Part shown: positions 15,320 through 18,094 of the stretch, one piece after another
How positions within the stretch are numbered: the first letter of the stretch is position 1
Layout: every line of letters begins with the position of its first letter
Source of the DNA: Clostridia bacterium
GTDB lineage: Bacteria > Bacillota > Clostridia > UBA1381
DNA: 64,000 bases
NCBI GenBank assembly: GCA_017443895.1
Contig: JAFSXU010000034.1
Location: 62,001-126,000, forward strand
Direction of reading: 5' to 3'
Translations under genes and position numbers: made by a program
Notes under the pieces: model-generated
Seen by the model: the letters and a program-made list of their open reading frames with translations, nothing else
What the model was told of the DNA's origin: nothing
Databases searched by the model: none

Positions 15320-15395
15320 CGGGGTGTAGCGCAGGTGGTAGCGCACTTGACTGGGGGTCAAGGGGCCGCAGGTTCAAGTCCTGTCACTCCGACCA
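15320..15395 (+). tRNA. tRNA-Pro (anticodon GGG)
   Basis: A 76-nt cloverleaf. The acceptor arms CGGGGTG and CACTCCG pair with one G-T wobble. The D arm is GCGC...GCGC, the anticodon stem CTTGA/TCAAG holds loop CTGGGGG with anticodon GGG, and the T arm is CAGGTTCAAGTCCTG. ACCA at the 3' end is encoded. A terminator follows directly. Confidence 0.95.
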
Positions 15396-15397
15396 TG

Positions 15398-15425
15398 AAA
15401 AAAGCACGCTTCGGCGTGCTTTTTT
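15398..15425 (+). terminator. terminator after tRNA-Pro
   Basis: Stem GCACGC/GCGTGC with TTCG tetraloop, flanked by an A-run and a T-run, directly after the tRNA. Confidence 0.92.
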
Positions 15426-15429
15426 CAAC

Positions 15430-15600
15430 GAAATACGCCTTGCGGCGTGTGAAATATTGCTCCGCAATGTGAAATAGCAACGCTATGAAATATTTGCTTT
15501 GCAAATGTTAAAGGCGTATTTCATTTCACTAAAAGCGTATGCTTTCTATTTCACAATTTACGCTGTAAATTATTTCACATCAACGAAGTTTATATTTCAC
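15430..15600. repeat. array of mini-hairpins spaced by GTGAAAT / ATTTCAC
   Basis: Short palindromes alternate with a constant heptamer: ACGCC/GGCGT, ATTGC-TCC-GCAAT, ATAGC-AAC-GCTAT and ATTTGC-TTT-GCAAAT are joined by (GT)GAAAT. Then AAAGC-GTAT-GCTTT, AATTTAC-GCT-GTAAATT and AAC-GAA-GTT are joined by ATTTCAC, the reverse complement. GAAATACGCCTT (15430-15441) and AAGGCGTATTTC form a 12-bp inverted repeat around the first four, so the whole can fold as one branched structure. It lies between the tRNA terminator and the secD promoter; the rest of that gap is AT-rich without features. Confidence 0.65.
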
Positions 15601-15726
15601 TTTGCACTTTCAGGGTAAAATTTTGCTAATTCTACTCCTGTTTATCCCATTAAACTCTACAATATTTACCTTATTATTATAAAACTCTTTAAAAATTACT
15701 GTTTTGTTTCAATTTATAAAAAAGTA

Positions 15727-15836: not shown

Positions 15837-17141
15837 ATGAAGAAAAAAAGCATTATTACTCTTTGCTTTGTTGTCCTTATTGCATTAGTATTGAATGTTG
15901 TTGCCTTCTACGGCTTAAACATTGCCGGTATCAAATACGGTGGTATGTTTAACACTGATGCTAATGTATTTGGCGGCATCAAAAAGGGTATCGACTTAGC
16001 AGGCGGTTCTGTTCTTACATTCCAGGCCAACACTGCTAATCCATCGGATGAGGACATGAACACGGTTGAAACTATCTTTGAAACCCGTCTTAATGCCGCA
16101 GGTTATACCGAGGCAAGGATTTCCAAGGGCGAGGGTGGAAAGATTACCGTTGAAATCCCTGAGGTTACAGACACTGACGAGGCAAAGAACCTCTTAGGCT
16201 CAGTTGCAAAGCTCACATTTACAGATGCCGACGGAAATGTCGTTTTAGAGGGTTCGGACATTAAAGACGCTGATTATCAGTACGGTCAGGTAAACTCAGC
16301 ATCAGCCGCAGAGCCTTATGTATCAGTTCAGTTTAACGCAGACGCTAAGCAGAAGTTTGCAGATGCAACAGCCGCTGCCGCATCAGCAGGCGATGGTAAA
16401 AACTACATCTCAATCATGCTTGATGACCAGGTAGTTTCAAGCCCGAGAGTATCAGAGAAGATTGATTCAGATTCATGCGTTATTTCAGGTAGCTTTACTG
16501 TAGAGTCTGCAAAAATGCTTGCAAACCAGATTAAATCAGGTCAGTTACCTTTTGAGCTTACAGTTATCTCAACTCAGACAGTTGGCGCAGAGCTTGGCGA
16601 TAAGGCTTTAGATAACAGTATCTTAGCAGCTGCAATCGGCATTTTGCTCGTTATGCTCTTTATGATAATCATGTACAGAGTTCCCGGCCTTATTGCTGAT
16701 ATCTCATTACTTATATATGTAGGCTTAATCGGTCTTGCAATGGGATTGTTCAGAATTAACTTATCACTCCCGGGTATTGCAGGTATCGTACTCTCCATTG
16801 GTATGGCGGTCGATGCGGACTGTATTATATTTGAGCGTGTCAAAGAAGAAATGCGTGCAGGAAAAACTATTAAGGCATCTGTTGATGCAGGCTTTAACAA
16901 GGCGTTTAGCGCAATCCTTGATGCCAATGTTACAACAATTATATCATGCGTTGTACTCTACATTTCAGGTATCGGTACAGTTATCGGATTTGCAACAACT
17001 CTTGGTATAGGCGTTATTTTATCAATGTTCACAGCTATCGTTGTTACTAAGTTCTTATTAAAACAGCTTGTTGGCATCGGTATCAAGAACAGATCACTCT
17101 TCTGCTCACAGAAGAAAGCAGTAGAAGGAGGTGCCAACTAA
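15837..17141 (+). CDS. secD: protein translocase subunit SecD
   Basis: 434 aa from ATG at 15837, preceded by AAGGAAGG; longer in-frame starts lack a ribosome binding site. After an N-terminal membrane segment come the SecD signature GIDLAGGSVLTFQ (about 57-69) and the P1 region with RLNAAGYTEARI. The second half has five membrane segments, including GIAGIVLSIGMAVDADCIIFERVKEE. With SecF it forms the membrane complex that uses the proton or sodium gradient to drive late protein export. Shorter than the E. coli protein, as usual in Clostridia with separate SecD and SecF. Confidence 0.97.
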   Translation: MKKKSIITLCFVVLIALVLNVVAFYGLNIAGIKYGGMFNTDANVFGGIKKGIDLAGGSVLTFQANTANPSDEDMNTVETIFETRLNAAGYTEARISKGEGGKITVEIPEVTDTDEAKNLLGSVAKLTFTDADGNVVLEGSDIKDADYQYGQVNSASAAEPYVSVQFNADAKQKFADATAAAASAGDGKNYISIMLDDQVVSSPRVSEKIDSDSCVISGSFTVESAKMLANQIKSGQLPFELTVISTQTVGAELGDKALDNSILAAAIGILLVMLFMIIMYRVPGLIADISLLIYVGLIGLAMGLFRINLSLPGIAGIVLSIGMAVDADCIIFERVKEEMRAGKTIKASVDAGFNKAFSAILDANVTTIISCVVLYISGIGTVIGFATTLGIGVILSMFTAIVVTKFLLKQLVGIGIKNRSLFCSQKKAVEGGAN

Positions 17142-18094
17142 TGAATAAGTTTGCAATCACACAAAACAGATGGAAATTTGTTCTTCTCCCTGCAATTATC
17201 ATAGTATTGGGTATCGTAATGTATTTTGTACGCGGTGGCTTTAACTTCGATGTTGAGTTTATGGGCGGTTCAAGATTACAGGTACAGTTACCACAAGGTA
17301 CTGACAAGGCAGAGGTTGAAGAGTATTTAAGCGAAACCTTAGGCGTTAATGTAACAGTTCAGAGCGGTGAAAAGGCAGACACTGTTGTTATTAAAACTCC
17401 TCCTATCGAGGGTGAGCTTGATGTCGTTGAAGACGGCGATGAAAATGCTCAGGAGAGCCCTGTATTTAAAGCACTGCAGGACAAGTATTCACTTGAGGAT
17501 TCAGCGCTTATCGACAACACAACCGCATCTGCAAGCTTTGGTGTCGAGGTTCAGAGAAAGGCACTTCTCTATACTCTCCTTGCAATTCTTTGTATCTTAA
17601 TATACATTGCAATCAGATTTGAGTGGAGATCGGCTATTATGGCTGTTATTGCACTTGCAATAAATGTTTTGGTAATGCTTGCTGTTTATGCAATCACAAA
17701 CATCTCTTTAAATACAACTTTCATAGCCGCAATGCTTACGGTTGTAGGTTATTCTATCAATAATACAATCGTTATCTTTGACAGAATAAGAGAGAATATG
17801 AAAGGTAAGAAAAAGACTGAAAGCGTATCACAGCTTGCAGACAGAAGTGTTTGGGAGACAATGGGAAGAACTATCAATTCTACCATTACAACACTTATCA
17901 CAATCGTTCTTATCTATATCTTAGGTGTTTCAACAATTAAAAACTTTGCATTACCTTTGATTGTGGGTATCGTAATCGGTGCATATACATCAATCTTTAT
18001 TGCATCATCTTTCTGGGCTGCATGGAGAGAATCAGAAATGCAGGCAAGAGCTGAGGCTGCTCAGTCAAGAAAGAACTCTAAAAAGAATAAATAA
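17141..18094 (+). CDS. secF: protein translocase subunit SecF
   Basis: 317 aa; its ATG overlaps the secD TAA by one base (TAATG), so translation is coupled, with GGAGGTG upstream. The SecF N-terminal hallmark is FNFDVEFMGGSRLQVQLP (about 30-47). Later come ASFGVEVQRKAL, VGYSINNTIVIFDRIREN and the final membrane helices, then a short basic tail (QSRKNSKKNK). There is an acidic insertion (ELDVVEDGDENAQESP) in the periplasm-side loop. A strong terminator follows. Confidence 0.97.
   Translation: MNKFAITQNRWKFVLLPAIIIVLGIVMYFVRGGFNFDVEFMGGSRLQVQLPQGTDKAEVEEYLSETLGVNVTVQSGEKADTVVIKTPPIEGELDVVEDGDENAQESPVFKALQDKYSLEDSALIDNTTASASFGVEVQRKALLYTLLAILCILIYIAIRFEWRSAIMAVIALAINVLVMLAVYAITNISLNTTFIAAMLTVVGYSINNTIVIFDRIRENMKGKKKTESVSQLADRSVWETMGRTINSTITTLITIVLIYILGVSTIKNFALPLIVGIVIGAYTSIFIASSFWAAWRESEMQARAEAAQSRKNSKKNK

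Follow-up and report, generated by a model that had tools for sequence, protein, structure and literature searches.

In the 64,000-nt stretch of DNA analyzed here (the window), sequence inspection places an array of seven small hairpins at 15430-15600, between the terminator hairpin of a tRNA-Pro gene and secD, which raises the question of what kind of element this is and whether it acts as DNA or as RNA. The word GAAAT starts at 15430, 15451, 15471, and 15487 and its complement ATTTC at 15518, 15523, 15548, 15572, and 15594, a small palindrome fills each of the seven gaps between these linkers, and a 12-bp inverted repeat (15430-15441 GAAATACGCCTT and 15511-15522 AAGGCGTATTTC) closes the first group of hairpins. 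An earlier note on this DNA had described the seven hairpins, the closing repeat, stems that differ from unit to unit while the linker stays constant, and the placement behind a tRNA terminator, all of which were found again (hp0 of tRNA-Pro at 15396-15427, secD start at 15837). Its naming of GTGAAAT as the joining word stood insofar as a constant linker is used and later reversed, but two linkers deviate, the first reading CGAAAT and the fourth ATGAAAT. The features of the locus are as follows.

15320-15395, plus strand: tRNA-Pro, anticodon GGG, 3' end CCA, host gene beside the element (ARAGORN; Rfam tRNA, 62 bits)
15396-15427, no strand assigned: hp0, perfect 14-bp hairpin TGAAAAAAGCACGC-TTCG-GCGTGCTTTTTTCA, resembling a bidirectional terminator (sequence)
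15426-15496, plus strand: Gut-1 (RF01706) match, the first half of the array (Rfam, 64.4 bits, gathering threshold 50)
15430-15510, plus strand: left half, GAAAT-hp1(15435-15448)-GTGAAAT-hp2(15456-15468)-GTGAAAT-hp3(15476-15484)-ATGAAAT-hp4(15492-15506)-GTTA (sequence)
15511-15522, plus strand: closing arm AAGGCGTATTTC, complement of the first linker and the hp1 left arm (15430-15441; sequence)
15523-15600, minus strand: right half, ATTTCAC-hp5(15530-15547)-ATTTCAC-hp6(15555-15571)-ATTTCAC-hp7(15579-15593)-ATTTCAC, a Gut-1-like module reversed (sequence)
15543-15628, minus strand: sub-threshold Gut-1 match on the opposite strand (37.4 bits, E 7.7e-6, gathering threshold 50)
15837-17141, plus strand: secD, neighbor outside the element (TIGR01129, E 1.2e-103)
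17141-18094, plus strand: secF, neighbor outside the element (TIGR00966, E 7.6e-80)

Within the 64 kb, the array is the sole place where, inside 320 nt, three or more forward occurrences of a 6-mer are followed by three or more of its reverse complement. The stretch 15395-15605, which includes the terminator hairpin, folds 6.5 to 7.5 standard deviations better than its shuffled versions (z of -6.5, -6.8, and -7.5 for RNA and the two DNA strands; none of 200 shuffles folded as well).

The first half of the array is a member of a known family: the gathering threshold of Rfam Gut-1 is exceeded by 15426-15496 only, the second half staying below it. In its original publication, Gut-1 is classed as a likely noncoding RNA, with human-gut sequence as the only source (Weinberg et al. 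2010, PMC2864571). Since the second half matches Gut-1 on the other strand and such paired plus- and minus-strand matches recur in other copies, both in this genome and in related ones, Gut-1 is, judged from sequence, one half of an inverted unit of four plus three hairpins. The general unit reads CGAAAT-hp1-GTGAAAT-hp2-GTGAAAT-hp3-GTGAAAT-hp4-closing arm, followed by ATTTCAC-hp5-ATTTCAC-hp6-ATTTCAC-hp7-ATTTCAC. It was parsed in at least 111 arrays from at least 103 loci, obtained mainly by a pattern scan of public genomes (mostly gut Clostridia; some loci were chance matches in unrelated phyla and were rejected by the parser) and supplemented by this genome and its family; counts on flanks use 98 or 99 arrays of this set, those with short flanks being omitted. 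Among the matches listed, 73/111 arrays have exactly 4+3 hairpins, 90/111 carry CAA or CAG ahead of the first linker, and in 93/111 the closing arm is complementary to the hp1 left arm over 5 nt, with closing-arm sequences that are themselves diverse and unrelated (AAATC, TCGCC, TTGCC, ACGCC, CCACC, and others). The window copy has this layout throughout (hp0, CAA/CAG, four forward-linked and three reverse-linked hairpins), and 12 bp of its closing arm can pair with the first linker and hp1 left arm. Free growth by addition of hairpins, as had been suggested earlier, finds no support in a set in which the 4+3 plan is so common, even though register shifts and one chimeric array exist despite it.

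The array is neither unique nor unconserved, which was the outcome that would have refuted the earlier note. A search of the genome for GAAAT-linked palindromes, as the earlier note had advised, gave 43 array-pattern matches as compared to 2 for a reversed control pattern; BLAST with the window array found 12 places, and 20 Gut-1 half-unit matches (10 above the cut-off) amount to about ten copies, several of them at different tRNAs. Together with recurrence in relatives and in many other Clostridia, these dispersed copies bear out the suspicion of a repeat family. The distribution is patchy: in a family search of draft genomes in many contigs, many of them incomplete, Gut-1 occurred in 11/70 genomes (a single genome had as many as 18 matches), three of the four congeners had no match, and 56/391 genomes of the class and 5/398 of a phylum sample were positive. 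Behind tRNA-Lys, this genome carries an array, but only a simple terminator stands there in three congeners; the tRNA-Pro genes of congeners G002 and G003, read from sequence, are without an array; and a second tRNA-Lys is followed by a remnant with GCTAAAT linkers here and, behind seemingly the same tRNA, by a GTGAAAT array in G002. Because presence differs at orthologous tRNAs and a copy on contig C56 mixes GCTAAAT and GTGAAAT linkers, array copies appear to come, go, and recombine at tRNA sites. The C56 copy (L172, G000:C56, about 51.7-51.9 kb) is a chimeric array behind tRNA-Ser with GCTAAAT linkers and one ATTTCAC-flanked hairpin inside, which we read as evidence for an exchange of hairpin units between linker families. 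A clean empty site corresponding to the window copy was not found, as the nearest congener has secDF and tRNA-Pro on different contigs.

The arrays are placed with a fixed polarity. Among the matches listed, a tRNA lies at most 90 nt upstream of the array start in 47/99 cases and on the other side in 0/106, a hairpin of at least 7 bp stands within 12 nt upstream in 87/98 arrays (on the far side in 27/98), and 80/98 have an upstream T-run. Some other arrays follow apparent tRNA 3' fragments, and one follows tmRNA. Signs of insertion were sought in several ways. Target-site duplications of at least 6 nt occurred in 11/68 copies with 6.0 expected, which is no general excess, and a GCTCACCA repeat flanking the tRNA-Lys copy that looked like such a duplication was unsupported across copies. 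A displaced native terminator behind the array was seen in 8/44 tRNA copies on the plus strand and is uninformative, because the count on the minus strand was likewise 8/44. In two congeners (L266 and L267; G001:C59 and G003:C21), an apparent reversed tyrosine-integrase gene was noticed by eye behind the tRNA-Lys terminator, so that the same flank may draw different mobile elements. BLAST of the window array against phages (50,697 records) and plasmids (72,556 records) gave no match. A pattern scan of viral contigs gave 19 matches, several with arrays; one contig filed as viral (L230, IMGVR_UViG_3300031555_007195) holds an IVP gene (see below) along with two Gut-1 arrays in tandem and is a possible vehicle of horizontal spread.

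A protein gene recurs beside the arrays. When the nearest ORFs of 104 arrays were clustered, the top family among the matches listed had seven members, all downstream (the next had five), and proved to be PF05635/TIGR02436, the 23S-rRNA intervening-sequence (S23) protein (IVP), an Avd-like four-helix bundle. At 14/103 array loci (among the matches listed), the array is followed on its own strand by a PF05635 gene at a distance of 18-101 nt. Gut-1 and the IVP gene adjoin each other in the same order in 12 genomes, with a spacing, read from match coordinates, of 136-173 nt in eleven and of 109 nt in one, whose profile match starts late. Within the family, PF05635 was found in 8/11 Gut-1-positive as compared to 7/59 negative genomes (P = 8e-5); the three positive genomes in which it was not detected are incomplete assemblies. 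No transposase, recombinase, or reverse transcriptase recurred in the clustered flanks. Beside the window copy the PF05635 gene is absent, and secD lies downstream. This genome has two IVPs: one on contig C4, associated with a GATGAAAT array, belongs to the clade holding the GTGAAAT IVPs, beside L297 and L042, and one on contig C55 represents the long-inverted-repeat type; neither is in the main GTGAAAT branch. A called tRNA stands within 500 nt upstream at only 1/42 IVP loci from the family search alone, and for this reason tRNA placement is a trait of the array lineage and not of IVPs in general.

A structural model of the L056 IVP (pLDDT 92, four helices) matches 2RLD and 2GSC and, more weakly, the Avd entries 4DWL and 8UB7 (TM about 0.7-0.8, Foldseek E 0.09-0.2). 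IVP/S23 proteins and Avd probably form pentamers, to judge from the five chains in 2RLD, 2GSC, and 4DWL. A 23S rRNA IVP is also named in a figure legend on CRISPR association (PMC10910872). IVP genes occur in other settings as well: a long inverted repeat of TATTCACT-like words precedes the gene at L315, L318, L320, and L323 (G000:C55, G002:C121, G060:C57, and G055:C75), directly behind an apparent tRNA 3' end at L315 and L320, and related repeats stand gene-less at several places in G002. At L306 (G062:C6), the 5' part of tRNA-Leu is present a second time ahead of the gene, as if the element had split or duplicated this tRNA. An IVP seen by eye to lie apparently within a 23S rRNA gene (L347, G271:C1:2603482-2603799) belongs to a genome with seven IVP matches, which makes a good system for questions of IVS copy number.

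IVP genes without an upstream Gut-1 match often have an array of the same plan built with a different linker word:

GCTAAAT linker: L307, L308, L309, L356
TCGATAT linker: L319, L328
TGAATT linker: L314
ATGAAG linker: L311
GATGAAAT or ATGAAAT linker: L164, L297
GTGATGT linker: L088
GTGATAT linker: L182, L321

Altogether 68 IVPs were gathered, 29 with an array (22 assigned by program, 7 by eye) and 39 without; linker labels were given by eye for L088, L182, L294, L297, L304, L321, and L326, as were the LIR and rRNA labels on the tree. The array of L326 is turned round relative to its IVP gene. A crude de novo test for arrays was positive upstream of 12/51 IVP loci, downstream of 3/51, and in 0/1020 shuffles; two of the twelve upstream positives (L313 and L318) turned out to be other repeats and not hairpin arrays. 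Of 28 IVP-linked arrays, 26 obey the closing-arm rule over 8 nt or more; L042 has 6 nt, and the start of L328 was misplaced by the script.

On the IVP tree, all array-linked proteins fall into one clade (support 97/93) that includes two without a seen array, and the linker classes require 14 changes for 15 groups, which is the minimum. One genome, G061, has three IVPs with three words (L184 GTGAAAT, L308 GCTAAAT, and L328 TCGATAT), each grouping with IVPs of the same word from other genomes. This co-descent of linker and protein shows that array and IVP gene travel as a unit; it is compatible with linkage alone, which could produce it, and is thus no proof of recognition. The protein-binding array suggested in the earlier note is plausible, given a linker word that does not vary within a family and that tracks the tree of the neighboring protein.

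Is the array then a nucleic acid that works as RNA? The published classification of Gut-1 as a likely noncoding RNA (PMC2864571) and its entry as an Rfam family speak for a small RNA, or for a longer structured RNA including the second half, that would be made by tRNA read-through or from a promoter of its own and act in trans, and the strong predicted folding of 15395-15605 points the same way. In some sister families, moreover, the array seemingly lies in the 5' leader of a protein gene (by eye). The stems, however, tell differently. The counts are based on unique hairpin segments, 8-24 nt long and at least 60% Watson-Crick paired, of which 134 left and 200 right segments were kept (129/152 and 195/205 in a similar stem tally). 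Among the matches listed, plus-strand mispairs number GT 24 : AC 20, divided into 3:10 in the left half (converted from the reverse frame) and 21:10 in the right, whereas tRNA stems of the same loci gave GT:AC ratios of 57:4 and 65:6 in acceptor and T stems, 122:10 in total; the contrast has P = 1e-7, with related copies not being independent. Recent amplification would likewise keep stems perfect, a caveat that belongs to this argument. The loops follow a rule as well (GNA in 77/121 triloops and GNNA in 61/88 tetraloops, among the matches listed), the third base of GNNA is not restricted to purines (33 R, 28 Y), and the rule holds on opposite strands in the two halves of the array. Mini-hairpins of the type d(GCGNAGC) are stable. 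Stems without the G-U excess typical of RNA helices, and a loop rule that changes strand between the halves, are a better fit to a palindromic DNA element, read from both strands, than to a single RNA. An RNA acting in trans also sits poorly with the multicopy, patchy distribution, with the position of the window copy behind a terminator hairpin, and with the lack of a consistent promoter in an unsystematic look, and we regard it as unlikely. For the window copy, the same position and stems leave the folded RNA leader proposed in the earlier note unsupported.

In the sister families with GCTAAAT and TGAATT linkers, hp0 is immediately preceded by a TATAAT box and the start codon comes soon after the array (both by eye), which suggests that these arrays may lie in an mRNA leader; in the GTGAAAT family, a TATAAT box is often found downstream of the array (by eye). 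Given these differing positions, the element could work at the DNA level, the RNA level, or both.

If the array is a DNA element, the next question is what moves it. In the REP system, GTAG followed by a palindrome, with cleavage at CT, has been described (PMC8266576), and the array could be a REP/BIME-like element moved by a Y1 HUH transposase (RAYT), with GTGAAAT in the role of the GTAG foot. The constant word 5' of the palindrome, the inverted arrangement, and the extragenic 3' positions all agree with it, GNA loops and near-perfect stems would suit recognition of single-stranded DNA, and CT follows the right end of the array in most copies. Yet PF01797 occurs in 7/11 Gut-1-positive and 27/59 negative genomes (P = 0.34) and is thus uncorrelated with Gut-1, the stems differ between units of one array, and complete copies carry an IVP gene instead. 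Four RAYT-like Y1 transposase genes of Gut-1-positive genomes (L237 and L238 at G000:C68 and G000:C8, L239, and L240) have no GTGAAAT-type array in the surrounding 3-5 kb, which weakens mobilization by a RAYT further and makes it decidedly improbable. Other short repeats, distinct from GTGAAAT arrays, were seen beside L239 via translations.

Alternatively, the array might not be a mobile element at all but a domesticated DNA structure behind strong tRNA genes (a supercoil sink, a site for gyrase or a nucleoid protein, or an insulator), spread by recombination between tRNA loci and with the IVP gene as an incidental neighbor. While the fixed orientation directly behind tRNA terminators (47/99 against 0/106, among the matches listed) and the fixed 4+3 plan (73/111, likewise) would be expected of such a structure, its absence from most related genomes and from the corresponding tRNA loci of near relatives would not, nor would the IVP neighbor at fixed distance and strand or whole families with other linker words ahead of IVP genes, and we give this reading very little credence. 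Least probable of all is that the array is an immobile cis-regulatory site through which the IVP gene controls itself, orphan arrays being decayed copies after gene loss, since, for all that the array lies immediately upstream of the IVP gene in nearly all cases, with about 15-100 nt to the start codon and apparent promoters before or after it (by eye), the gene is present at only 14/103 loci (among the matches listed) with linkers and stems nonetheless intact, and about ten copies stand in different places of one genome, behind several different tRNAs.

The reading that we consider probable is that the window array belongs to a dispersed family of selfish elements, many copies of which, this one included, lack the gene. 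A complete element starts with hp0 and the letters TCA; next come four hairpins, each preceded by the constant linker, the closing arm with its complementarity to the first linker and the hp1 left arm, three hairpins between reverse-complement linkers, and finally the IVP gene. By analogy with Avd, which works with structured RNA, the IVP may recognize the linker word of its own array in single-stranded or cruciform form, and this recognition would promote copying or insertion of the element, the insertion chemistry probably being borrowed from the host or another enzyme. Gene-less arrays such as the window copy would be mobilized in trans, now or formerly.

It is conceivable, although we would sooner expect otherwise, that the array-clade PF05635 proteins are the trans-acting factors of a new class of mobile elements, each reading its own 6-8-nt word at the feet of DNA mini-hairpins and colonizing the ends of stable-RNA genes (tRNA and tmRNA terminators, and 23S rRNA in the case of the intervening sequences, IVS). 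An Avd-like pentamer would then be architectural and rely on a borrowed insertion enzyme, Gut-1 would be the cis half-site, and the IVS would be rRNA-dwelling cousins. What is new here is the link between the hairpin array and a PF05635 gene, for which literature searches found no paper connecting Gut-1 or hairpin arrays to PF05635, whereas the Gut-1 half was already known from Rfam. This link joins two unsolved items, namely Gut-1, an orphan "sRNA" since 2010, and the 23S rRNA IVS, whose function and origin are still called unclear in PMC4990558, where a role of the ORF in mobility is given as one theory. If IVPs have cognate DNA or RNA words arranged in arrays, short oligonucleotides would suffice for a direct test of what this large protein family does. 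More generally, structure-based RNA discovery may pick up DNA palindromes of selfish elements, for which the asymmetry of wobble pairs offers a cheap filter.

Among known systems, Gut-1 is represented in the window array by the first half, a full-length, above-threshold RF01706 member; as defined in PMC2864571, however, Gut-1 is a 77-nt noncoding RNA of three hairpins, whereas the element here is an inverted 4+3 unit, dispersed, placed behind tRNA terminators, and linked to a protein gene. With the 23S rRNA IVS the element family has in common, according to the account in PMC4990558, that a small selfish element carries PF05635 (the S23/IVP ORF) as its sole gene and sits beside or inside a stable-RNA gene. 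Unlike the IVS, the window element lies outside rRNA, intergenically behind tRNA-Pro, and has two inverted blocks of linker-joined hairpins in place of one terminal inverted repeat; on the IVP tree, the array IVPs and the apparent rRNA type (L347) form separate clades.

REP/BIME/REPIN elements with TnpA-REP, as portrayed in PMC8266576, likewise have a short constant word at the foot of a palindrome, inverted copies, and extragenic positions, and are probably read as single-stranded DNA, but in the array the word is GTGAAAT and not GTAG, stems vary within one array, the 4+3 plan is fixed, and the partner is an IVP with no association to Y1 transposases. The array also resembles a CRISPR array in the regular alternation of constant and variable segments; here, however, the variable parts are palindromes, the constant parts are short linkers that invert halfway, and no Cas genes are among the recurrent neighbors. 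The likeness to diversity-generating retroelements (DGRs) concerns the protein: the IVP model superposes on 4DWL and 8UB7, the latter by its title a DGR ribonucleoprotein, and Avd is described as a retroelement accessory protein (PMC10053308), whereas neither a reverse transcriptase nor template and variable repeats recur in the flanks of the arrays, whose recurrent partner is the IVP gene.
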